A stretch of 64,000 bases of DNA, taken from positions 3,224,001 to 3,288,000 of the forward strand of contig NZ_CP003915.1 of NCBI RefSeq assembly GCF_000521505.1, written 5' to 3'. Below are positions 10,561 to 61,950 of the stretch, one piece after another; the first letter of the stretch is position 1, and each line of letters starts with the position of its first letter. Made by a program: the position numbers and the translations under genes. Under the pieces are notes generated by a model. That model did no database searches, was not told the DNA's origin, and saw only the letters and a program-made list of their open reading frames with translations. Origin of the DNA: Advenella mimigardefordensis DPN7. GTDB lineage: Bacteria > Pseudomonadota > Gammaproteobacteria > Burkholderiales > Burkholderiaceae_B.

Positions 10561-10677
10561 CTTATTTCATTTGTTCATGTCGGACAAGTAATTTGTGGCG
10601 GAATGTGGAAAAATGGCCGGCCTCACGCACCGAATCTCTGCATTTTTAACCTATCTCTCACATTTGGCCACCTTATC

Positions 10678-10734
10678 ATCACCCGGACATCCTCCCATCA
10701 CCCGGACATCCTCCCATCACCCGGACATCCTCCC
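10678..10734. repeat. three perfect tandem copies of a 19-mer
   Basis: ATCACCCGGACATCCTCCC occurs three times in a row without a mismatch (10678-10696, 10697-10715, 10716-10734). It lies in the kdgD-ogt intergenic region, outside coding sequence. The unit has no spacer, so this is a minisatellite-like expansion, not a CRISPR. Confidence 0.9.
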
Positions 10735-49538: not shown

Positions 49539-50327
49539 GTGAAACAAATCCATTCGCGAATTATCAATCTGGCAGATTGGTTCAATACGGACCCGGGACA
49601 GCGCGTCATACAGTGGGAATCATCAAAATTCGATCAGATCGTGGCCGACTCTTTCGGATTCAACGCGGTCCAGGTCGGGCTGCCTGACTGGAATTTTTTG
49701 CATCATAACAGAATGCGCACCAAAATCATTCTGACAGATGACCGCTTTAAAAATTGCCTCCACTATCCCAACACGCATTTTGTCCAGGCGCAGCTGGACG
49801 CCCTGCCGCTGGCTTCCAATTCCATCGATTTGCTCATTCTGCCCCATATTCTGGAATGCGCGGATAATCCGCACGTGGTGTTGCGGGAAGCAGAAAGAGT
49901 ATTGGTCCACGAAGGCCGCCTGATTATCTCGGGCTTCAACCCCTGGAGCCTGTGGGGGCTGCGCTCGCGCATGCCCCTGCGCAAGCCATGGATGCCCGTG
50001 GCCGCATCACGCCAGGTATCGGTCACCCGCCTGAAGGACTGGATGAAATTGCTCTCATTTGAGGTAGACCGGGGCTACTTTGGCTGTTACACTCCCGCCT
50101 GCAATACGGAGCGGTGGCTGAACCGGTGGGACTTCATGAACAAGGCGGGTGATCGATGGTGGCCCGTGGCCGGCGCCGTGTACCTGCTGGCTGCGGTCAA
50201 ACGCACCCATGGCATCACACTGATCGGCCCCTCCTGGAAAGGCAAGAAGAAGAAAAAATTCGCCCGCGGCGAAGCCGCCATATCCCGTCGCGAAGTACGT
50301 CAGCTTTTTAAAGAACCACATGGATAA
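49539..50327 (+). CDS. class I SAM-dependent methyltransferase
   Basis: A 262-residue protein starting from GTG at 49539 (AGGA 5 nt before). The Rossmann part has [65 protein letters not shown] (motifs post I to III). The C-terminal half is a basic region ending [14 protein letters not shown]. The methyl acceptor is not known. It overlaps rnhA by 8 nt, an arrangement that may couple the two. Confidence 0.85.
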
Positions 50328-50784
50328 ACCACAAGTCAATATCTGGACAGACGGCGCCTGCAAAGGCAACCCCGGCCCCGGCGGCTGGGGCGTACTGTTA
50401 CGCCAGGGCCCGCATGAAAAAACCCTTTTCGGCGGCGAGGCGCAAACCACCAACAATCGTATGGAAATGATGGCCGTCGTAGAAGCGTTGCGGGCATTGA
50501 AACGCAGTTGCAATGTCACCCTGCATGTGGACTCGCAATACGTTCAGAAGGGCATCTGTGAATGGATGACAGGCTGGCAGGCGCGCAACTGGAAGACGGC
50601 CGATAAAAAGCCGGTCAAAAACGTCGACCTGTGGCTATTGCTCAATGAACAGATTGCCCGGCACGATGTCACCTGGAAGTGGGTCAAAGGCCATGCCGGT
50701 GACCCCGGTAACGAGCGGGCTGACCAACTGGCCAACCAGGGCGTGGAGCTGGTTCGGAAACAGAAACCCGCGGCGCAGGTTTAA
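50320..50784 (+). CDS. rnhA: ribonuclease HI
   Basis: A 154-residue endonuclease that degrades RNA in RNA-DNA hybrids. Catalytic residues are in [16 protein letters not shown] (Asp), [10 protein letters not shown] (Glu), [10 protein letters not shown] (Asp) and [16 protein letters not shown] (His and Asp), with the basic protrusion [13 protein letters not shown]. Cytosolic housekeeping enzyme. Its start lies within the methyltransferase end. Confidence 0.95.
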
Positions 50785-50826
50785 GGCAGAGGGCCCGATG
50801 CCGGGCAGGTCTCACGGCGGCCGGCC

Positions 50827-50945
50827 TCTCCCGGTTAGTCTCTCCCCGGTTAGTCTCTCCCCGGTTAGTCTCTCCCCGGTTAGTCTCTCCCCGGTTAGTC
50901 TCACTCAGGTCAGGCTCACTCCAATTGATCTTACTCCGCCTGATC
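50827..50945. repeat. array of 15-bp tandem repeats, decaying at the right
   Basis: The unit TCTCCCCGGTTAGTC occurs four times exactly (50841-50900) after a 14-nt copy, and three more diverged 15-nt units continue to 50945. It lies between rnhA and the VOC gene. The last unit runs into the VOC stop codon region. It can be read in several frames (for example Val-Ser-Leu-Ser-Pro repeats), but I see no start signals. Confidence 0.9.
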
Positions 50946-52527: not shown

Positions 52528-52865
52528 GTGTATTCTCCCTTGGTATGTGAGCGACAGACGCTGTCGTCTACAACCACAGTATGCGGATAAACCGTTAGGC
52601 TGAACATAGGCTGATACGACAACATCAGGGGAGAAATACGACAGTTGTCATAACGTCCGGCATCCCAGGGTACACGGGGTTACCACGGCTCGGGTCATGC
52701 ACGGACACACCGTCCCCTGACCCGCCCGAGCCCCAAAATCTTGCAAAATGTAAAAAATCGGTATTGTCTTTATGATGTCATTTGAGTGGGTTATTTCTAG
52801 ACTGAAAAAACTGCCCTACTCGTGCGAGACACCTCACCCGAGGATTGGCTGACCCGAAAATAAAC
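52528..52865. other. intergenic before the type VI accessory operon
   Basis: 338 bases without a supported gene. A -35-like TTGTCT occurs at about 52766 but has no clear -10 partner. The DUF1428 gene is transcribed away; the 52866 gene starts at the right edge. Confidence 0.35.
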
Positions 52866-53420
52866 ATGACAGACGAAAGACCGCATATCGAACGTTTACA
52901 GCATCGCGCCAGCAGAATGATCTGGCTGGGTTTTGCAGCGATCCCGTTTTCCCTGCTCAGCATGTATCCGGTTCTCGTCCATCCAGGGGAATCCGTTTAC
53001 GCGCCCATCCTGCTCCTATGCGCGCCGCTTGTAGTGGCAGCGCTTTTGTTTGGTCTGGGATTACGCGTATCGCACCGCGCCCTGCAGTTGAACAATACGC
53101 GCAACACCCGTATCCTGAAAAACAGCGAAATGCGCAGCTTGCTATTGGTTAGCATAGAGGACACGCATCATGTCATTAACAGCAAGCCGGTATTGCGCCT
53201 GAGCTTGTCCGACCCGCAAGCGCCGCATCGACAATACAAAATCACCGAACCCGTTTCCGCACTACACTTGCGTGATCTGCAGGCGGGCAAGGCGGTGCCG
53301 GTGCTATTTCTGGACGACGGACGCGAATTGCGACTGGGACTGGATCCGCAGTCCTCGCAACAGGACTGGGGCTTTCTGTCCCGATTCATTCGTGAAGAAC
53401 AACAACAAGCAGCAGCGTGA
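52866..53420 (+). CDS. two-TM membrane protein of the T6SS accessory locus
   Basis: A 184-residue protein. Two hydrophobic segments (about 17-37, MIWLGFAAIPFSLLSMYPVL; about 48-68, PILLLCAPLVVAALLFGLGL) precede a cytosolic beta-rich domain (SLLLVSIEDTHHVINSKPVL; GKAVPVLFLDD). The second part is distantly similar to that of the protein at 61492. It lies 79 bp upstream of the DUF3540 gene and is likely in the T6SS accessory operon. The function is unknown. Confidence 0.65.
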   Translation: MTDERPHIERLQHRASRMIWLGFAAIPFSLLSMYPVLVHPGESVYAPILLLCAPLVVAALLFGLGLRVSHRALQLNNTRNTRILKNSEMRSLLLVSIEDTHHVINSKPVLRLSLSDPQAPHRQYKITEPVSALHLRDLQAGKAVPVLFLDDGRELRLGLDPQSSQQDWGFLSRFIREEQQQAAA

Positions 53421-53499
53421 AATCAAATTGTCATATCGATGTCGTAATGCTTTGCGACAATAGACGGCATTATCCACTTACCCGTACAGGAGTCAATGA

Positions 53500-54150
53500 A
53501 TGCTGGTGACCCGCCCTCAACTACCGGCCTACGATCCGATACAGCTCGTGGGCCAGGTCCTCAGTATTGATAATGGCATTTGTACGGTACACTGCGACGG
53601 TGCCAACTGGCATTGCACCCGGGCGCTCAGTTGTCTGGTCGAACCGCAAATCGGAGATGAAGTCCTGATCAGCGGTCCGGATCGCGATCGCGTTTTCTTG
53701 CTTGCCATCATTGCCCGCCCTGAAAACACGACCGTCACACTCTCGGTAACCGGGGATATGGCGATCCGCAGCGAAGCGGGCGCCGTGAGCGTGCATTCAG
53801 CAAAGCTGACCCATATCCACAGTGATCAGGCGGTCAAGCTGACTGCTCCAAGCCATGAGCAGGAAAACGATTCGGCCATCATGAAGATAGGCCAGATGAA
53901 CTATCTGGGAAAAAAACTCGACGCCGTCGTCGGCAGCACAGACTTTTTCTCGAATGTGATCGGACTGATGTCGGACAGCTTCAAAAGCGTGGCGCGGCTT
54001 TGTTTCCGACATGTCAAGGAAGTCGATCACGTCAGGGCACAGACCATCGACTACGAAGCAGAGAAACTGACCCGGGTACATGGTGGCTATACCACCCTGA
54101 CCGCACAGGAAGTCATGAAAATCAACGGCGATCAGATTCACATGAGTTGA
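53500..54150 (+). CDS. DUF3540 domain protein (T6SS-associated)
   Basis: A 216-residue protein with an N-terminal OB-like region (VGQVLSIDNGICTVHCDGANWHCTRALSCLVEPQIGDEVLI) and a C-terminal region with beta-helix-like repeats (TLSVTGDMAIRSEAGAVSVHSAKLTHIHS; AQEVMKINGDQIHMS). DUF3540 genes occur next to vgrG, DUF2169 and PAAR-like genes. AGGAG at 53488-53492 supports the ATG. The protein may be a structural or chaperone-like partner of the tip. No experimental role is known to me. Confidence 0.85.
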   Translation: MLVTRPQLPAYDPIQLVGQVLSIDNGICTVHCDGANWHCTRALSCLVEPQIGDEVLISGPDRDRVFLLAIIARPENTTVTLSVTGDMAIRSEAGAVSVHSAKLTHIHSDQAVKLTAPSHEQENDSAIMKIGQMNYLGKKLDAVVGSTDFFSNVIGLMSDSFKSVARLCFRHVKEVDHVRAQTIDYEAEKLTRVHGGYTTLTAQEVMKINGDQIHMS

Positions 54151-54153
54151 TCC

Positions 54154-54165
54154 CCACGTACGTGG
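54154..54165. repeat. 12-bp perfect palindrome
   Basis: CCACGTACGTGG, 15 bp before the DUF2169 start codon. It may be a small operator or simply a loop-less dyad. No further copies were found in the operon. Confidence 0.5.
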
Positions 54166-54179
54166 TTCGATAAGCAATA

Positions 54180-56939
54180 ATGAAAACAGTCAAACCTCTA
54201 CGACTGGGCGTCTTAACCCGCCCATTCGGGTTACAGGAAAAAAGCTATCTGGGTGTCGTCGTATATGCGCTGGTGGATTTCAATGGCGAATCCCCGAAAC
54301 TCGTACCCGATGCCGAGCTGACCACTCATCTTTTGCAGGACATGGATTGCGAAGGTATTCTGGATCTCGTTCTGCCAAAACCTGTACCGGAGTTTCTTGT
54401 CAGCGGCAACGCCTATACCGCACATCAGCAGGATAAAACGCGTTGCGCGGTACGGGTACAGGTAGACAAACTGGAAAAAAGTTTGCTGGTTTCCGGCGAG
54501 CGCTACTGGCTGAACGGTACCATGACCTCACCCCAGGCATTCGATGAAATGCCTGTCAGCTGGAGCCATGCATACGGGGGTGCGGATTTCGCCGAAAACC
54601 CGGCCGGCAAGGGTCGCGATCGGGAGTGGATCAATGGCAGCTGGGTGCGGCGCTTACCCAACGTAGAGGCGCCCGCCAGTACCATGCATCGACAGGATCA
54701 GGCAATACTTCCTGCCTCTTTCGGCCCGGTCCTTTTGACACGCCCACGCCGTTACTCGCAGGTAGGCACGTTCAGCCAGGAATGGATGCAAAACGACATG
54801 AACGCATTCTTCCCCGATATGGACCCTCGGCTGTTCAACGCAGCCGAACCCGATCAACGCTGGCCAGACCGCGATAGCTTGCCTTTAGGCGCATCGTTTC
54901 GCATATGGAATATGCATCCCGAACAGCATTGCTGGAGCGGCATCCTGCCTGACTGGAAGGCGAGATGCTTCGTATTGCAGCAAATGTCCAGTGCCAGAGA
55001 ACCGGAACACGAAGCATTCCTGGAGGTCGACCTGAGGCCGACCACAGTATGGTTCTTGCCGAATATCCGGCACGCTATTCTGATGTATCATGGCGCGTTG
55101 CCCGTTGCACAGTCCTACGCGGAAGACGCGTTGGCCATACTGCCGGCCATGGAACTGCCGGACCAGCCAAAAACCAAGTCCTATTACCGACAGATTTTTG
55201 ATCAGCGCAACGACATGGAAACGGGCGCCCTGTATACCTTGCGTGATCGTGACCTGATTCCCAAATCCATCATGGGAGACTGGCTGGATACCAAGCCCCA
55301 GTTGCAAAGCCCATTCCTGGACAACGCGCATAAATTCGAGCAGCGCAAAAGAGCGCAGATCCGTGCCTTTCTGAATAAACATGGCACGAGCCTTCCGGAC
55401 AGCGAACGCGATGAGCTCAATGCGCTGGTTCCCGAGTTTGTCGGTCCGCCCTTTCCCGCAGATCCGGAGCATATGCCCGAATTGCACGAACGGATGCAAA
55501 AACTCAAGGCCGATGCGATGGCACAATTGGAAGCGCAAAAACAGAGCGCGCGCCAACAATTGTCGGAACTGAATGCCGTCGACCCGCAACACACCGGATC
55601 GAAGGACGCCGAAGGGGCTGCGCCCGCACTGGACGCCGCGCAGATTGAAGAGATCGGCAGGCACATTGATTCGCCCGCCCCGGCCGATCGTCAACAAATG
55701 CAGGATGCTTTCGGAGAATTAACGAAACAGCAGGAAAAGCTCGAAGCCGACTGGGAAAAATGGTCACAGCAACACGGAGACCCGGATAATACGACGACAA
55801 AACTGAAAGACATGAAGCAGCAGCGGGAGCAATCACGCAAGCAACTGGGGAAAATCAATCTGTATTCGGCGCACCTGATCGGCGGAAAAATCATTGTCGA
55901 CAGCCATGTCGCTGACAAAAAACGGTCCGAAGCACAACAACGTTATGCTGAAGGACAGTCCATGCAGGACATGAATCTTGCCGGCGCAAATCTGTCAAAC
56001 CTGGAATTTGTCGATGCAGACATCTCGGGTTCGGACTTATCCGGCGCCGATCTGACCGGTGCTGTCTTTCGGCGTTGCAATCTTACAAATGTCATCCTCA
56101 GCAGAGCCTCTATCCAGGACGCAAGCTTTACCGATTGCGAATTGAACGGCACTAACCTGGGCGAAACCCAGGTTGAAAGAAGCAATTTCTCCGGCTCCAG
56201 ACTGAAAAATGTCATTTTGCACAAAACCGAATTTTCCCGTTGCGATTTCCGGCAAACCCGGTGGCAGGATATCCTGAACAATACGCATGCGCGATTCTCG
56301 GCATGCCGCTTTGATGCATCCAGCGCCGACAAAACTGTTTTCGTGCAGTGCCACTTTGAAAATAGCAGCTTTTATCAGGCAAAATTCTCACAGACTATCT
56401 TCCAGCAAACGACACTGGTCAATGTGAATTTCGAACAATCGCAGCAGAAAAGCGCCGGATTTGTTGCCTGCGATATGGACACCATTAACTTTTCGCAAGC
56501 GCGGCTTGATGGCGTATCGTTCATATACAAGCTGAACATTCGGCACTGCGCATTCCGGGAAACCAGACTAAAAGGCTGCAGCTTCAAGGGCACCGTCCTG
56601 CACGGCATCCAGGCTCAGAAGGCTCGCCTGCAGTACTGCGACCTGACACTGGCCGATCTGCGCTACGCCGACTTCACGGGCGCAGATATGCATCATTGCG
56701 TGCTCAAATCCGCCAATCTTCGCGATAGTCTTTTTAATCAGGCCGACTTCACCTCCGCTATTTTGACCAAGGCGGATTTGCGCGGTGCGGATCTGCGTTA
56801 TGCGAACTTTTGTACAGCCGACATTTCCGAAGTACGCATGGATAACACAACCTTGATCGAAAATATCTACACCGAGCATACCAAGCGCTATCCGCTATAC
56901 CGGGAACCATTCGCACAACAGGATGGCGCACGCCCATGA
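54180..56939 (+). CDS. DUF2169 protein with C-terminal pentapeptide repeats
   Basis: A 919-residue protein. The N-terminal DUF2169 domain (about 10-310) has PVSWSHAYGGADFAENPAGKG, PRLFNAAEPDQRWPDRDSLPLGASFRIWNMHPE and LWRVDLRPTTVWFLP-like segments. A Gln/Glu-rich coiled coil (about 400-560: AQLEAQKQSARQQLSEL, QQEKLEADWEKWSQQH) follows. Pentapeptide repeats fill about 590-900 (SGADLTGAVFRRCNLTNVIL). DUF2169 proteins are linked to T6SS tips and act as adaptors/chaperones in several genomes; the repeats form a quadrilateral beta-helix. Its stop overlaps the next gene by ATGA. Confidence 0.88.
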   Translation: MKTVKPLRLGVLTRPFGLQEKSYLGVVVYALVDFNGESPKLVPDAELTTHLLQDMDCEGILDLVLPKPVPEFLVSGNAYTAHQQDKTRCAVRVQVDKLEKSLLVSGERYWLNGTMTSPQAFDEMPVSWSHAYGGADFAENPAGKGRDREWINGSWVRRLPNVEAPASTMHRQDQAILPASFGPVLLTRPRRYSQVGTFSQEWMQNDMNAFFPDMDPRLFNAAEPDQRWPDRDSLPLGASFRIWNMHPEQHCWSGILPDWKARCFVLQQMSSAREPEHEAFLEVDLRPTTVWFLPNIRHAILMYHGALPVAQSYAEDALAILPAMELPDQPKTKSYYRQIFDQRNDMETGALYTLRDRDLIPKSIMGDWLDTKPQLQSPFLDNAHKFEQRKRAQIRAFLNKHGTSLPDSERDELNALVPEFVGPPFPADPEHMPELHERMQKLKADAMAQLEAQKQSARQQLSELNAVDPQHTGSKDAEGAAPALDAAQIEEIGRHIDSPAPADRQQMQDAFGELTKQQEKLEADWEKWSQQHGDPDNTTTKLKDMKQQREQSRKQLGKINLYSAHLIGGKIIVDSHVADKKRSEAQQRYAEGQSMQDMNLAGANLSNLEFVDADISGSDLSGADLTGAVFRRCNLTNVILSRASIQDASFTDCELNGTNLGETQVERSNFSGSRLKNVILHKTEFSRCDFRQTRWQDILNNTHARFSACRFDASSADKTVFVQCHFENSSFYQAKFSQTIFQQTTLVNVNFEQSQQKSAGFVACDMDTINFSQARLDGVSFIYKLNIRHCAFRETRLKGCSFKGTVLHGIQAQKARLQYCDLTLADLRYADFTGADMHHCVLKSANLRDSLFNQADFTSAILTKADLRGADLRYANFCTADISEVRMDNTTLIENIYTEHTKRYPLYREPFAQQDGARP

Positions 56940-58006
56940 TTTCGCCCTCGACCCGCCAACAGTTCTTTGACTGCCTTGATAGTTACGAGCCGATACAGGA
57001 AAAAAATTTTGCCGGTCTTTCCCTTGGAAACACAGAGCTGTCGGGTCGCGTTTTCGAAAAGGTCGATTTCACCGGAGCCGACTTTAGCGGATCGCGCCTG
57101 GATAACATCGTTTTCACCAACTGCCGCTTTGACAGCAGCGTTTTTGAACGCGCAGACTTGCTGCGTTGCCTGTTTTCGGGATGTGAGCTAACCGCAAGCC
57201 GTTTCTCCCATGCCTCGCTCAGGGAATGTTCCATTGTCGAAAGCCAACTGGCAAAAGCGCTTTTCTCAGAAGCAATCCTGGATAGCTGCACCTTCGGCCA
57301 GACGAACCTGAGCGCCGCCATTCTGTCGCAAACGGAATGCAAAAAAACGACTTTTTTCGAAACCGATCTGACGCAGACCGATTTTGTCGGTAGTACGTTT
57401 GAAATCAGCGTCTTTTTCCGCAACGACCTGAGACAGACACGGTTCGATGATTGCTATTTCGAAAAAACCGTTATGAACGAAACCCTGCTCGCCGGGCAAC
57501 GTTTCACCGGACTGACGTTTCAGCACTGTCCTTTCGTCAAGAGCGATTTGAAGCAGGCCATTTTCCAGGACTGTTACCTTGCCGGATGCAATTTCCAGGA
57601 AAGTCAGCTGAACAACGCCCTATTCAGCGCATGCGATTGCACCAATGCCATATTCATCGAGTCAGACGCGCCGTCAGTCCGGTTTTCGGACACCCAGCTA
57701 TCGCAAAGCATGTGGATACAGGCCGTGGCCACCGACGCCCACTTCACAGACTGTAATATGACAGAAAGCATCCTGCATGAAGCTAATTGTGAAAACGCCC
57801 GGTGGAACCGTTCGGATCTGACCCGGGCCGATTTTTCCCGAGCCAATCTGCGCCATACTCAGTTTGAATCAGTCACACTGCGTGACACGCTATTTCATCG
57901 GGCCCTGGTTTCCGACGGCGCATTGCTACGCAAACCTGGCGCTTTGCCGCAACGAGATTACCTGCATGAGGCCGAGCTATGGACGCAACAGGCAAGGTCC
58001 CGATGA
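56936..58006 (+). CDS. pentapeptide repeat protein
   Basis: A 356-residue protein that is almost entirely pentapeptide repeats, such as ADFSGSRLDNIVFTNCRF, TNLSAAILSQTECKKTTFF and ADFSRANLRHTQFESVTL. Such proteins fold as right-handed quadrilateral beta-helices. It starts with the ATGA overlap to the DUF2169 gene, implying a joint complex. A pairing of PPR-fused adaptor and free PPR protein is typical for DUF2169 loci. No enzymatic motif is visible. Confidence 0.88.
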   Translation: MISPSTRQQFFDCLDSYEPIQEKNFAGLSLGNTELSGRVFEKVDFTGADFSGSRLDNIVFTNCRFDSSVFERADLLRCLFSGCELTASRFSHASLRECSIVESQLAKALFSEAILDSCTFGQTNLSAAILSQTECKKTTFFETDLTQTDFVGSTFEISVFFRNDLRQTRFDDCYFEKTVMNETLLAGQRFTGLTFQHCPFVKSDLKQAIFQDCYLAGCNFQESQLNNALFSACDCTNAIFIESDAPSVRFSDTQLSQSMWIQAVATDAHFTDCNMTESILHEANCENARWNRSDLTRADFSRANLRHTQFESVTLRDTLFHRALVSDGALLRKPGALPQRDYLHEAELWTQQARSR

Positions 58007-58039
58007 CCATCCCGCGTTGATCGTCTGAGTGACAGGAAG

Positions 58040-58087
58040 CAACGCCTCGCAGCCAGGCTCGCGCAACAGGTTTCGGGAAAGGCGTTG
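58040..58087. terminator. possible bidirectional terminator, convergent T6SS genes
   Basis: CAACGCCT (58040-58047) and AGGCGTTG (58080-58087) pair across a 32-nt loop. It lies between the ends of the pentapeptide gene (58006) and of the vgrG-linked gene (58089). The long loop makes it a weak call. Confidence 0.3.
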
Positions 58088-58088
58088 T

Positions 58089-58463
58089 TCAGGCAAAAAC
58101 AAAAATCCGGTTAGGGGACGGGATCAGATTGGTGGACAAAACGCCATTGATAATATTGCTCAAACCCATGGAAATCCAGCGACAAACCGGTAAGGCACCG
58201 GAAAACACCCGGAAGCTGACATTGATGAATTTGGTCGCAAAGCATTTGACCACGGGCACCAGCACGCCCAATATCCCGGTTTCATTGGCCCAGGTTATCA
58301 TCGTAGGCATGGGGCAGCACTCCAAATCCAGCCCGGGCGTAAACACCCGGGAAAGCGGATTGGGGATCATGGTGATTTTAGGACCAAAATTGGGGCGAGG
58401 CCCCAGTATCATCACATCGACCAGCGTCACACTTGATCCGATTCGGCCCTGTAAAATTGGCAT
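58089..58463 (-). CDS. unknown 124-aa protein in PAAR/cargo position downstream of vgrG
   Basis: It begins 14 nt after the vgrG stop, with GGAG 10 nt upstream of ATG, so it is a real co-transcribed gene. The sequence (MPILQGRIGSSVTLVDVMIL, PRPNFGPKITMIPNPLSRVF, CRWISMGLSNIINGVLST, PSPNRIFVFA) is Gly/Pro/hydrophobic and beta-rich, without a clear signal peptide. A PAAR or DUF4150 protein is expected here, and short beta-rich sequence fits, but I do not find a definite PAAR signature. It could also be a small effector, adaptor or membrane-inserting toxin. The other strand has an ORF (58129-58467) with no start signal. Confidence 0.7.
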   Translation of the reverse strand: MPILQGRIGSSVTLVDVMILGPRPNFGPKITMIPNPLSRVFTPGLDLECCPMPTMITWANETGILGVLVPVVKCFATKFINVSFRVFSGALPVCRWISMGLSNIINGVLSTNLIPSPNRIFVFA

Positions 58464-58477
58464 TTAATTGTTCTCCG

Positions 58478-60904
58478 TCAAGCAAATAGTTTCAAACCGG
58501 CAAGGGTAACGCCCAGGCCCTGTAATGTGGTTTTCGCGGCTGTTGTTTTCAGATCGATCCCGTCCGCCTTCCAACTCGCCCCGCTAACATCGACTTTCAC
58601 CGCCTGATTGCTGAACTTCAGTCCCGTTAAGGCCAGATTCAAGCCGTCCAGCTGCATGGCGATACCCCGGAGCGCGACTCGAAGCGGCTGTACTTGAATT
58701 GCCAGGCTCGAATAACCAAAATTCACCGCCCAGGTCACCGATACCTTGATCGGCATTACGTCATAGCCAAGAATCGTAACCGCCTTGTAATCGATACCGG
58801 AAACGGTGGTGTCCCTGCCAGCCTTATAGTTATTGACTGCGTGCGAGGTCACATTTTTTATCTCGCCGCTGGACGCGGTAATCGTATACTTTTTGCACAG
58901 GATCTCAAAGTCCTGTTTCGTTGCATCAAAAAGCACCTTTCCTCCGTGCTTCGACGTAAAGGTATTTTCATACGTATGTGTCGCCGCGCCCGTTACCGTG
59001 ACATCTTCTGTCTCTGCAACGGTGCGCGTCAGTTTGTTTTTGTAGTGCAGCGTCGCAGCCTCTTTCACGTCCTGATGCAGCGTACCGTCTATGGTGTGGT
59101 GTTCATTCGATTTCACATAAACGGTATTGGTGCCTTCCTCGACTCGAAAAACATTATTGCCGGTGATGATCTTTGTTGTCGCGCCACCCTTGATATGGTC
59201 TGTCAGGCCAGAAGCAGTAATGTCTCTATGCACACCCGCGTCAAACGTTTCCTTTTCATGTCCGACAATATGCGTAGTGCGGGTGCCCGTTACATCCCGC
59301 GTCTCAGTCTCGCCCACCGTCGTTTTCAAATTGGCGCCTACGGTGACCGTCAGATTGCGTACCACGTTCAACACCATATCCAGCTGCGCACGCATATCCA
59401 CCAGTTCCTGGCCCAGCTTATCTTCGAAGATCATCTGGTTACGCATGCTGGGATCGCCGAATACAGACTGGCTGCGAAAGCCACTCTGCGTTGCATTGGC
59501 CGGCAACGATACCGGCGGCATGTTCTGCGCGTTATACACCCGCCCCAGAATCACCGGCCGATCCGGATTTCCGCCGATAAAATCAACCACCACTTCGTCG
59601 TTGATACGCGGCAGTTGCAGTCCGCCGAAACCACCACCTGCCCATGGGCTGGATACACGAATCCAGCAAGAGCTGTTCTCGTCCCCGGTCGCCTGGCGAT
59701 CCCAGTGGAACATGACCTTGATACGGCCATATTGATCGGTCCACAACTCTTCACCCGCAGGCCCGACGACACGAGCCGTTTGCGGCCCACTGGTTTTGGG
59801 CTGAGGCGTTACGCGGGGCGCGCGAAATTGAATATTGGATGGCAAGGCACGGAAGATCACTTCAAAATGATCCTCTTGTTCAGTACCGGTAGAATAACCG
59901 GCCACGCTCATGTTATAGCTGGCCGATACACAAAGGTATTCGCGGTTTTCGGTACGACGGGGATGGTTACGCAGCTTGAAATTGCGTCCAGGCTCTACAG
60001 CGCGGATATTGCAGATGCCAAGCACCTGCTCTCTTGCGCCCTGTATTTCCTGTAGTCGCAGACGAGCATATTTTTCACCGTGGTCGGCTTCCTGGTACCC
60101 GCCCTGCCACTCGTAGATTTCCAGCTTGTCGGTGTTGGCCGTTTCGGCATTCTTGCTGGTCGAATCCAGACGTGCGCTCGGCTTGCGGAAATCGTAGTCA
60201 ACCGTGGCGTAGCCGCCCGGCGTGATCTGCGCCTGTACATGCCAGTCTGAGACGAATTCTTCATGCGCCAGCATGTGCATCTGGCCATCGTAGAACGTAT
60301 AGGTATCGTGACCGGGCGCGGGCTCATGCGTAGACATATCGTCTGTCAGCACCAGTGTGTGCTCGCCGTTCTCATGACGGAACCAGTAATAGATACCCTC
60401 ATGCTCCATCAATCGACTGACAAAATCGAAATCTGATTCCTGATACTGTACGCAATATTCCCAATTGCGATACGACTCGGTCAGATTGTATTCCACCGGG
60501 AAGCTGTAAGCACCCAGCACCTGCTTGAGAATATCAACCACCGATTTATTCTGGAAAATGCGATTATCTCTGGATTGAGTCAGATACCAGAGAGACGGTC
60601 TTACGGTCGCGCGATAAACATAATATTCGGAATTGAGTAATTCACGCCCCACCAGCTCGAACCGGATGATCTGGCCATTCAGGTAATGCGGTGCACCGCT
60701 GGCGGTTTCCACCTGCAATGTGAGTGGCTTGCCCAGCAGCGACCGGACATCCAGCATATAGGTTTTAGCGACCAGTTCGACATTGAACTCAAATAATTCC
60801 GAGAGCCCGGCCTGCCCTTTCATGCTTTTGAAGTGAAGCACCTCGGGCATCGGTGTATGCGCGATAACGGGCCGGTTCTGTAACTGAGGGATATCCATGT
60901 TCAT
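58478..60904 (-). CDS. vgrG: type VI secretion system tip protein VgrG
   Basis: An 808-residue spike protein. The N-terminal gp27-like part (about 20-340) includes FKSMKGQAGLSELFEFNVELVAK and MEHEGIYYWFRHENGEHTL. The gp5-like OB domain (about 385-475) has YGRIKVMFHWDRQ, SCWIRVSSPWAGGGFGGLQLPRINDEVVVDFIGGNPDRPVILGRVYN. The beta-helix needle follows to about 700, then a region of about 90 residues (YKAVTILGYDVMP to the end) is predicted mostly amphipathic and may be a cargo or extension domain. Trimeric tip of the injection device. An ATG at 60898 with GAGAG before it is an alternative start. Confidence 0.93.
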   Translation of the reverse strand: MNMDIPQLQNRPVIAHTPMPEVLHFKSMKGQAGLSELFEFNVELVAKTYMLDVRSLLGKPLTLQVETASGAPHYLNGQIIRFELVGRELLNSEYYVYRATVRPSLWYLTQSRDNRIFQNKSVVDILKQVLGAYSFPVEYNLTESYRNWEYCVQYQESDFDFVSRLMEHEGIYYWFRHENGEHTLVLTDDMSTHEPAPGHDTYTFYDGQMHMLAHEEFVSDWHVQAQITPGGYATVDYDFRKPSARLDSTSKNAETANTDKLEIYEWQGGYQEADHGEKYARLRLQEIQGAREQVLGICNIRAVEPGRNFKLRNHPRRTENREYLCVSASYNMSVAGYSTGTEQEDHFEVIFRALPSNIQFRAPRVTPQPKTSGPQTARVVGPAGEELWTDQYGRIKVMFHWDRQATGDENSSCWIRVSSPWAGGGFGGLQLPRINDEVVVDFIGGNPDRPVILGRVYNAQNMPPVSLPANATQSGFRSQSVFGDPSMRNQMIFEDKLGQELVDMRAQLDMVLNVVRNLTVTVGANLKTTVGETETRDVTGTRTTHIVGHEKETFDAGVHRDITASGLTDHIKGGATTKIITGNNVFRVEEGTNTVYVKSNEHHTIDGTLHQDVKEAATLHYKNKLTRTVAETEDVTVTGAATHTYENTFTSKHGGKVLFDATKQDFEILCKKYTITASSGEIKNVTSHAVNNYKAGRDTTVSGIDYKAVTILGYDVMPIKVSVTWAVNFGYSSLAIQVQPLRVALRGIAMQLDGLNLALTGLKFSNQAVKVDVSGASWKADGIDLKTTAAKTTLQGLGVTLAGLKLFA

Positions 60905-61491
60905 CTCTCGCGCTGGGCGCGTGCTGGTCGATCAAAAAAAGGGGCGGATTTGCGTGTATGAGCGATGCTCATCGTTTGTGATCAGGACTGCCTGTCAAAT
61001 GGGCCTCTGTCCAACATGATCAATAGTCAGCTATTGCAGTTGCTATTGATTCATCTGATCGGGACAGCACAAATCATAGGCAGGCTTTATGTCAGAATAA
61101 TTACCTGAATAAGTCGTCATCCCTTGGGTAAGCGCCTATACGCCCGCAAACCACCGTATAACACGCTGACAGCAGCGGCGCGCACCATAGAAGGAACACA
61201 CTTTTACATATGAAATATTCTCTAATATATGAAATGAGGCATAAAAGCAGCATTCCCGTGCACTTTGACCAGACCGGACCGGACGCTTCGTCGTGTCGTT
61301 CGGAAGTCGCCACTGACCAATTCTGAAGTGCAGCCATTGATTCAATCAGCAACGATTTAACCTGCTCTGATAGCAGTATGTACTGTTATTATTTCTGTCA
61401 TATTACTGACGTAATATGATGATGATTGTTTCGGCATCCTCCCTGTACTACAACGATTGTCGGATACAGATATCGCGGTGAACTTACGTTT
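60905..61491. other. divergent intergenic region, vgrG and a membrane protein
   Basis: 587 bases with no supported gene. CAATAG-N4-CTATTG at 61021-61036, followed by a further CTATTG at 61043-61048, is a dyad about 120-145 bp from the vgrG start. A minus-strand ORF of 83 codons (61101-61352) has no family features and no strong start. Promoters for both flanking genes must lie here. Confidence 0.4.
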
Positions 61492-61950
61492 ATGTCCAAT
61501 ACAAAAAGTACTGCCCGCCTGGGCTGGAAATTATTTGCTCTTTCCTGGATCCCCTTTATTGGAATCTTTTCCTATGTCTTCTATCCAGTAGAAGATTGGC
61601 TACCGCCGATTTCGATATATTGTCTGGTGATCTCAATGAGCATGATGCTCGGCGGCATCATATTGATTCTTATATCGCTATCGGCTGGCGCCAGCGATAA
61701 TCGACGGGTCCGCGAGACCGGCGAGCGTGGCCAGGCCACTATCCTGTCGGTGGAAGATTCAGGTACCCGGATCAATGATCATTTCGTATTAAACGTGGGT
61801 GTTCGCATTACACCCACTTTCGGCCCGGCCTTCGAGACCGTATGCAGCCAGGTTATTCCAATCTACCATATGGCGCAGATCCAGAAAAACAATACGGTGA
61901 ACGTGCTGTACCTGAAAGAGACACAGGAAGCAGTGATTGATTTTGATTGA
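61492..61950 (+). CDS. two-TM membrane protein, paralogue of the 52866 protein
   Basis: A 152-residue protein with two hydrophobic segments (about 9-30, LGWKLFALSWIPFIGIFSYVF; about 41-64, IYCLVISMSMMLGGIILILISL) and a cytosolic domain ATILSVEDSGTRINDHFVL, with PTFGPAFETVCSQVIPIYHMAQI and VNVLYLKETQEAVIDFD. The SxEDxxxxIN and VNVLY positions match the 52866 protein. Divergent from vgrG. Function unknown; possibly an immunity or accessory protein of the tip locus. Confidence 0.65.
   Translation: MSNTKSTARLGWKLFALSWIPFIGIFSYVFYPVEDWLPPISIYCLVISMSMMLGGIILILISLSAGASDNRRVRETGERGQATILSVEDSGTRINDHFVLNVGVRITPTFGPAFETVCSQVIPIYHMAQIQKNNTVNVLYLKETQEAVIDFD

Follow-up and report, generated by a model that had tools for sequence, protein, structure and literature searches.

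We analyzed a 64,000-nucleotide stretch of the Advenella mimigardefordensis DPN7 genome (NZ_CP003915.1, 3,224,001 to 3,288,000), called the window below, and found at positions 52845 to 61950 what is, judged by sequence, a full Class III Tvp cassette of the type VI secretion system (T6SS). The locus very probably encodes one chaperoned version of the spike, a VgrG with its PIPY-family tip, for the T6SS of the cell. By itself the cassette is mostly of a kind already known, and the derived tip protein is its own feature. The wider family to which it belongs probably holds a new spike architecture. Positions refer to the window unless C1 or an L-number is given; L-numbers denote fetched loci and G-numbers genomes, G000 being the window's own genome (2 contigs, 4.76 Mb in total).

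Gene content and class assignment of the cassette

The plus-strand operon begins with TM2a, a protein with two putative transmembrane (TM) segments (hydrophobic residues 26 to 44 and 55 to 73) and a C-terminal domain, which starts at 52845 (TTG, 191 amino acids [aa]) or 52866 (ATG, 184 aa) and ends at 53420. It is followed by tvpC (53500 to 54150, 216 aa; DUF3540, PF12059, E = 2.5e-71) and by tvpAB (54180 to 56939, 919 aa), which joins a DUF2169 domain (PF09937, E = 3.3e-65), a middle region, and C-terminal pentapeptide repeats (PF00805, E = 8.6e-47). The last gene, tvpB (56936 to 58006), encodes a free pentapeptide-repeat protein of 356 aa (PF00805, E = 2.1e-43), and its start overlaps the end of tvpAB by 4 bp (ATGA). 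Converging on this operon is a minus-strand pair, vgrG (58478 to 60904, 808 aa), with a gp27/gp5 hub (TIGR03361, E = 4.8e-176) and a long C-terminal extension, and 14 bp downstream of it a 124-aa paar gene (58089 to 58463) for a divergent DUF4150/Tox-PAAR-like tip of the PIPY family. Divergent to vgrG lies TM2b (61426 to 61950, plus strand), a membrane protein of the TM2 profile family with five predicted strands in its C-terminal domain. An earlier note on this DNA had described a two-TM, DUF3540, DUF2169-pentapeptide, and pentapeptide operon, its last two genes coupled by ATGA, converging on a vgrG pair; all of these genes are in place and the coupling is confirmed, and TM2b lies just beyond the range that the note gave.

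Class III Tvp systems, described from Serratia marcescens, comprise TvpAB (DUF2169 plus pentapeptide repeats), TvpB, TvpC (DUF3540), a small DUF4150-type PAAR protein, and a long VgrG, usually of 700 to 800 aa (PMC13373197). The window encodes a DUF2169-pentapeptide TvpAB, a DUF3540 TvpC, a free TvpB, an effector-less tip, and an 808-aa VgrG. Since the tested sequence-level features of Class III are present, we assign the cassette to this already described kind. The DUF2169 domain of TvpAB also matches the solved DUF2169 structure 8vth (E = 7.5e-13). A TvpC profile gave four weak matches to solved structures (E = 0.13 to 0.20), all spike or tail-tip chains, which we did not use as evidence.

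The protein set and the effector-less small tip resemble those of Serratia marcescens Db10 (TvpAB, TvpB, TvpC, Paar1, and VgrG1), where VgrG has 786 aa and a small membrane protein likewise lies beside vgrG (PMC13373197). Unlike Db10, the Advenella locus lies apart from the core as a pair of convergent operons, its tip lacks the PIPY motif, it has two flanking TM2 proteins (probably not Vai1, the small protein of Serratia), and a second TvpC is encoded at the core. The joint presence of vgrG, DUF4150, DUF2169-pentapeptide, and DUF3540 is also like DUF2169 synteny type C (PMC11883445), from which Advenella cassettes differ in often lacking DUF3540 and in that VgrG may be short and followed by three extension genes.

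The convergent cassette is present in six of the seven DUF2169-bearing Advenella genomes, each time with its own TvpC and a divergent PIPY protein. Its closest named loci by DUF3540 are those of A. kashmirensis W13003 (98%) and A. incenata (94%). All frames are open in the window, and the ratio of nonsynonymous to synonymous substitution rates (dN/dS) against the A. incenata orthologues (L136) ranges from 0.06 to 0.26 across all seven cassette genes; the small open reading frames (ORFs) are under constraint, with values of 0.06 for the 124-aa ORF and 0.26 and 0.15 for the two membrane proteins. Pfam found no effector domain among the cassette genes or in the eight flanking ORFs scanned, which comprise one glyoxalase, one DUF1428 protein, and six ORFs without a family. 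Two points weigh against our reading of the locus: these six ORFs leave room for an unrecognized toxin, and the support comes from sequence and from published work on other bacteria.

The survey behind the following counts covered DUF2169- and DUF3540-centered stretches from genomes of the family together with 80 named loci; vgrG was not a selection criterion. Stretches were labeled with profiles built in this analysis, and labels were picked without overlap. TvpAB loci were defined by ORFs of at least 600 aa, a limit that leaves out Class I proteins and split ORFs (e.g., L040), and gave 147 loci, of which 136 are distinct by their last 500 residues. These 136 loci contain VgrG in 129 cases, PIPY in at least 127 (a lower bound, as the PIPY ORFs of L049 and L102 were lost to overlapping picks), TvpB in 124, TvpC in 84, TM2 in 79, and any profiled core gene in 38. 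The proposal that this is a T6SS tip cassette linked with vgrG is borne out by the 129 loci with VgrG in the same stretch, and a pentapeptide operon occurring as often without vgrG, which would have weakened the link, was not what we found. Among the seven remaining loci, L017, L038, and L044 are tip-only, L060 is cut inside tvpAB by the edge of the stretch, and the contig of L092 ends about 1 kb past tvpAB; the others are L109 and L211.

A predicted, divergent PAAR-like tip protein

The 124-aa partner of vgrG had been listed as an unknown; the gene is real, as its dN/dS indicates, but a profile now places its product as a divergent PAAR-like tip. The window's genome has four further DUF2169-pentapeptide cassettes, each with a small PIPYP-containing protein, and the canonical paralogue that we checked (L018) is a PF13665 Tox-PAAR-like protein (E = 1e-34). 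A profile seeded with the four canonical paralogues and without the 124-aa protein was iterated over 8499 ORFs (E <= 1e-3, at most four rounds). It recruited the 124-aa protein (E = 4e-28, a post-iteration value) as well as five orthologues from other Advenella genomes. In alignment A3 (34 members), GPRPNF stands in the window protein at the place of PIPYPN, and seven columns, mostly in the C-terminal half, are invariant. Among solved structures, the A3 profile matches 8qjc, a T6SS Rhs chain (E = 1.6e-8). On these sequence grounds we classify the 124-aa protein as a derived PIPY-family homologue without the motif and predict that it is a PAAR-like tip.

Several results weigh against this placement. 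The protein has no Pfam match at E <= 0.1, its AlphaFold2 model has a predicted local distance difference test (pLDDT) score of only 32.5 and no usable fold, and the P(I/V)P(Y/F) motif by which the family has been delimited (PMC11883445) is absent from it. An orthologue, L047, reached 0.051 against PF13665, below the cut-off. The motif expression is matched by 96 of the 141 labeled PIPY members, or by 81 of 120 once duplicates are removed; thus, the motif is common, though not universal, in the family.

T6SS core genes and the supply of TvpC

No tssA-M core had been seen beside the cassette, which holds for the window and not for the genome. The genes tssA, B, C, D (Hcp), E, and F lie at C1:4.385-4.393 Mb, in a run ended by a second DUF3540 gene, and tssG, H, J, K, L, and M lie with TagF and an FHA gene (FHA below the family cut-off) at C1:0.720-0.734 Mb. 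With VgrG as TssI, TssA-M is complete, and the host genome has a full T6SS core outside the window.

DUF2169 genes outnumber DUF3540 genes five to two in the window's genome. Both occur in 90 of 268 family genomes, DUF2169 alone in four, and DUF3540 alone in one. Advenella genomes have up to five TvpAB cassettes yet two TvpC genes. In six of them, one DUF3540 gene ends the tssA-F cluster without an adjoining cassette, the second lies within the window-type cassette, and the remaining TvpAB cassettes fetched (4, 4, 2, 3, 1, and 2) contain no TvpC. The window TvpC is 36 to 40% identical to the core-type TvpC of Advenella and 61 to 98% identical to its orthologues. In the seventh genome (L034), tvpC-vgrG-TM2-tvpAB-tvpB-PIPY follows tssF in a single run, which is probably the ancestral arrangement.

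This distribution suggests that the other four TvpAB cassettes of the window's genome, being without a local TvpC, would need the core-encoded TvpC in trans, so that one core-encoded TvpC may serve several cassettes. The divergence of the tip protein may be why the window cassette has a TvpC of its own. We did not meet TvpC sharing in the literature searched, although no search was aimed at it.

The variable VgrG tip and the TM2 membrane proteins

The VgrG encoded in the window and that of L137 are 96% identical in the hub and 36% identical from residue 680 to the end, and residues 721 to 765 are hydrophobic (hydropathy +0.73). A conserved hub with a variable distal part is the pattern of a polymorphic weapon. 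As no separate toxin was recognized, the spike tip itself may be the weapon. In Serratia, VgrG1-dependent activity depolarizes target cells and a separate effector was not found; Vai1, encoded beside vgrG1, protects, is predicted to be periplasmic, and has a DUF3192 domain (PMC13373197). On our reading, toxicity would lie in the hydrophobic, variable VgrG tip with its PAAR-like cap, and immunity to it would come from the TM2 membrane proteins on either side of the locus. Two further long VgrGs, of 1991 aa (L022:2335-8310) and 1965 aa (L023:4432-10329), are encoded in the window's genome with no Tvp cassette in the stretch.

TM2a and TM2b belong to one family, as three separately seeded iterated profiles converge. 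Among the six Advenella convergent cassettes, TM2b is labeled in all and TM2a in four (the window, L037, L040, and L045). In the 136 distinct TvpAB loci, 45 TM2 members have vgrG on one side and tvpAB on the other, all in the same orientation. Neither TM2a nor the other TM2 members scanned contain a Pfam family over the cut-off. The AlphaFold2 model of TM2b (pLDDT 78.5) shows two long helices and five strands, and hydropathy marks one segment only; Foldseek found no PDB match for it at E <= 0.001. Thus, the assignment of a function to TM2 rests on context.

We compared distances in 40 loci with the order vgrG-TM2-tvpAB and exactly one TM2, one VgrG (770 to 860 aa), and one TvpAB. TM2 distances correlate with those of the last 130 residues of VgrG at a rho of 0.78, with those of the hub at 0.55, and with those of the adjacent DUF2169 domain at 0.35. 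The partial correlation with the VgrG tip, given hub and DUF2169, is 0.69, a value reached in 0 of 2000 permutations. Because TM2 divergence follows the variable VgrG tip, TM2 appears to be the best immunity candidate, and we lean slightly toward TM2 being the immunity protein of the spike tip.

Against this assignment stand, besides the TM2b model without a structural match, several further observations. The 40-locus sample is phylogenetically uneven, with many Variovorax. Partial correlations that are equally significant link TM2 to the proximal extension of VgrG (0.51) and to the TvpAB pentapeptide domain (0.60), so that it could belong to tip assembly. The label is missing from 57 of the 136 TvpAB loci, a few of which have an unlabeled small ORF at the same place. 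The body of TM2 is cytoplasmic by charge in 73 of 89 distinct members, unlike the predicted periplasmic location of Vai1 (PMC13373197). DUF3192 is not matched by two Serratia TM2 members, even with the threshold relaxed to E <= 10, which makes it improbable that TM2 is Vai1.

Some of these same results suit another explanation, that TM2 is a membrane-anchored accessory which docks the capped spike at the membrane complex of a cassette delivering only Hcp cargo. Co-divergence with both the VgrG tip and the pentapeptide domain of TvpAB, the spread of the family over many genera, and a cytoplasmic body, as expected of a partner inside the attacker, all favor such a role. An accessory of this kind fits poorly with the loci that have no TM2 label, including all 11 triple-vgrG cassettes described below (trio-type cassettes have it in 17 of 19), with the two or more copies in 8 of the 136 loci, and with distances that track the variable VgrG tip above the conserved hub. 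We consider this explanation possible but doubtful, and retain immunity as the tentative function of TM2.

Proposed three-gene tips after short VgrGs in relatives

The window cassette has a single long VgrG; the three-gene sets described here, and the conservation of position within them, were seen in its relatives only. In 25 loci, the VgrG upstream of tvpAB is no longer than 668 aa; in two of them, it is cut by the end of the stretch or contig (L108 and L133). The 23 truly short VgrGs are followed by three extra genes in 14 loci (counting as one the first gene of L041, which is split into two ORFs), by one in seven, by two and a roughly 1-kb stretch without a long ORF in L076, and by none in L130. 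Among 101 rows with longer VgrGs, two or more unlabeled ORFs (75 to 98 aa) occur only in L043, a triple-vgrG cassette, and one such ORF (63 to 193 aa) occurs in eight.

In the Advenella sets, a short VgrG (662 to 668 aa) is followed in tight operons by three tip-like proteins, mostly of about 165 aa (L020:6825-10262, L051:10183-13710, L046:10230-13773, and L036:10405-14086); in L020, the third has only 135 aa instead of 164, and 93 bp separate it from tvpAB. Three other loci contain a tip set with TvpAB, TvpB, and PIPY and no vgrG in the stretch (L017:7882-13575, L038:8069-13733, and L044:7758-13570), and these coexist with the short-vgrG sets of L020, L036, and L046 in G000, G046, and G048. 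G050 (L048) has two tip sets side by side, one of them without its own same-strand vgrG. Two further types, for which we use the inferred genus names Bordetella (L142/L128) and Pelistega (L168/L107), have comparable sets.

By size and by profile, the three-gene sets resemble the part that the short VgrG lacks. Summed lengths of 662 + 165 aa (Advenella) and 517 + 300 aa (Pelistega type) approach that of an undivided VgrG, often 780 to 830 aa. The alignment of the window VgrG runs on past the stop of a short VgrG and continues in the first of the extension genes (G000 C1:4119824-4121998, with one TAA inside; L020). When the three-gene sets were compared with the VgrG C-terminal region, hhalign gave 95% for the Pelistega type (one locus, three proteins), 78% for Advenella (26 trio proteins of 131 to 179 aa), and 61% for one position of the Bordetella type (seven loci), with controls at 1.2% or less and column shuffles at 0.3% or less. 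The other two Bordetella-type positions are weaker, at best 4% and 18%.

The three positions are also distinct from one another. Each protein finds its best cross-locus partner at its own position, without exception in the 168 comparisons for Advenella (168 of 168; eight of ten sets, excluding L041 and the second set of L048, whose first or third ORF is short) and in the 126 for the Bordetella type (126 of 126; seven of eight sets, L076 being excluded), which argues that each position is a lineage of its own. A common 1-2-3 order across the Advenella and Bordetella-type sets was considered and rejected, as no clear mapping emerged (best hhalign 39%). A quick DUF2169 tree was built from 99 rows; composition was flagged for L106 and L132, and L130 and L133 are labeled long although the L130 VgrG has 528 aa and that of L133 is truncated where the contig stops. 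In this tree, the three-gene state takes two changes, a number dictated by branches with strong support. Two gains are the simplest account, in a count of changes that cannot separate gain from loss and that also allows exchange of tip sets.

The seven loci with one extra gene are of another kind. In six, a single protein of 455 to 607 aa lies between a short VgrG (531 to 579 aa) and tvpAB (L059:10401-11810, L064:10040-11452, L090:9970-11364, L112:9976-11376, L113:7663-9030, and L110:9701-11524), and in the seventh, L111, it is an unlabeled 499-aa ORF. The six proteins have a strand-rich look and hydrophobic stretches and are possibly spike-borne effectors; one of them was scanned in Pfam, with nothing over the cut-off. 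We dropped the idea of a "one or three" rule, with single proteins of about 460 aa as homotrimeric extensions, as a profile of the five tested is unrelated to the VgrG tip (hhalign 0.6%). Outside the family, ten class-wide loci with long, TvpAB-type DUF2169 proteins showed no clear trio; L224 has one unassigned ORF (862 aa), and L220 has two that precede tvpAB where its contig starts (199 and 300 aa).

The three extension proteins might instead be separate effectors, or effector and immunity genes, rather than spike subunits. They sit after vgrG, a frequent cargo site; the five scanned contain no family over the cut-off; only 5 of 18 are tied to the extension of VgrG by direct BLAST (E <= 1e-3); and the N-terminal halves of the Bordetella-type proteins are long and outside the VgrG match. 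Such a role is at odds with the relation of their profiles to the VgrG C-terminal region, with their place in the survey, where they adjoin tvpAB only if VgrG lacks that region or vgrG is absent, and with the occurrence of three proteins, position kept, at two separate places in the tree. We judge it unlikely, and continue to read the three proteins as parts of the spike.

A split vgrG is known from Acinetobacter, where N- and C-terminal VgrG domains are encoded by separate genes, as in the relatives described here (PMC6838775). Unlike in Acinetobacter, these relatives have three different C-terminal-type genes after the short VgrG, inside a Tvp cassette. We met no mention of three-gene tips among the matches listed from the literature searched, which lacked most subscription papers.

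Triple-vgrG cassettes and possible heterotrimeric spikes

In another clade, ten cassettes have the order VgrG-PIPY-VgrG-TvpAB-TvpB-VgrG (e.g., L019:920-15951), and an eleventh, L131, is cut before the first VgrG. We met no such triple-vgrG cassettes in the literature consulted. The PIPY ORF of L049, though lost to an overlapping label, was found by profile. The three VgrG hubs within each of the ten are 41 to 54% identical. The third VgrG has Rhs repeats in all 4 examined of the 11; in L042 it has only 583 aa and is perhaps broken. Different VgrG chains can join in one trimer, as in known VgrG heterotrimers. Compared with these, the cassettes here combine three old vgrG paralogues in one locus with a single TvpAB, TvpB, and PIPY.

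Three genes at two places in the tree, specific to position and replacing a trimeric part, together with the triple VgrGs, fit heterotrimeric spikes, and we infer from sequence that both kinds of cassette may encode them. In the published model, TvpB and TvpAB touch different faces of the TvpC trimer (PMC13373197), for which an asymmetric trimer would make sense.

We favor, with some reserve, a joint reading in which several Class III Tvp lineages broke the three-fold symmetry of the spike, either with a three-protein tip on a short VgrG, at two places in the tree, or with three VgrGs, the third bearing an Rhs effector, to give one effector per spike. The vgrG-less tip sets of Advenella would then be swappable heads that share a short VgrG, with several of these heads served in trans by one core TvpC. 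An asymmetric cap, with one TvpAB, one TvpB, and one PAAR protein per trimer, would be why asymmetry pays.

A model for spike assembly

The earlier note considered the function of such cassettes in tip assembly poorly defined, and that function has since been described (PMC13373197, 2026; PMC11883445, 2025). In Serratia, a complex of TvpAB, TvpB, and TvpC with the PAAR-like protein was shown, and the later replacement of TvpC by VgrG was inferred (PMC13373197); a DUF2169 structure has been solved and DUF2169 proposed as chaperone of the PAAR-like (PIPY) tip (PMC11883445). The steps suggested here for Advenella are taken from this work on Serratia and on Vibrio and Pseudomonas relatives. DUF2169 would shield the hydrophobic PAAR-like tip, TvpAB and TvpB would wrap it, and the cap would form first on TvpC, a mimic of VgrG. 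The real VgrG would then displace TvpC, upon which the Hcp tube would grow and fire.

Given this published chaperone role, the large TvpAB protein is best read as a tip-wrapping chaperone. The earlier note had suggested a scaffold that may load a cargo on VgrG, and in this version TvpAB and TvpB would bring a separate cargo protein to the spike. DUF2169 proteins of other classes are indeed required for delivery of PAAR-domain effectors, including Tde2 (PMC13373197) and effectors of P. aeruginosa and V. parahaemolyticus (PMC11883445). However, no cargo gene was recognized adjoining the cassette, no effector-domain ORF was found in the cassette, the eight flanking ORFs scanned, or the tip protein itself, and the PAAR protein that these proteins cap in Serratia is itself effector-less (PMC13373197). 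A cargo scaffold is thus improbable here, and the chaperone fits better.

A similar gene pair occurs in T6SS group_5 of Burkholderia glumae, where a DUF2169-pentapeptide gene has a pentapeptide gene downstream (bglu_2g07420/07410), and both pentapeptide-part proteins are needed for the T6SS phenotype (PMC8747328). The B. glumae genes lie inside the core cluster of a plant pathogen; here the cassette is an orphan. That the window cassette is a decayed, disused relic is highly improbable: its frames are open and the dN/dS values of its seven genes are low, as given above, and the one hint of decay, a tvpAB of this cassette split into two ORFs in G047, comes from a genome in which other T6SS genes are split too, by assembly error or decay.

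Other features

The split genes of G047 are tvpAB, tvpB, tssF, and the first tip gene, each in two ORFs (L040, L041, L042, and L117), which reflects sequencing error or decay. The window also contains two tandem repeats, one at 50826 to 50902 (15-bp unit, 5.2 copies, 98% matches), downstream of a 154-aa ORF at 50320 to 50784, and one at 10677 to 10734 (19-bp unit, 3.1 perfect copies). Promoter and terminator scans gave counts near chance (11 versus 9.3 and 13 versus 11.1) and were not used as evidence.

Implications

The window cassette extends the Tvp chaperone system to orphan cassettes that have a TvpC of their own and whose PAAR-like tip is without the PIPY motif. Through its relatives, three ideas can now be tested: that TvpC is an exchangeable template, which would here be shared in trans; that the VgrG tip is a toxin with an adjoining membrane immunity protein, as a conserved hub, a variable tip, and a co-varying TM2 suggest; and that the spike can be a heterotrimer. 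The last of these, if true, would change the view of the stoichiometry between spike and effector.

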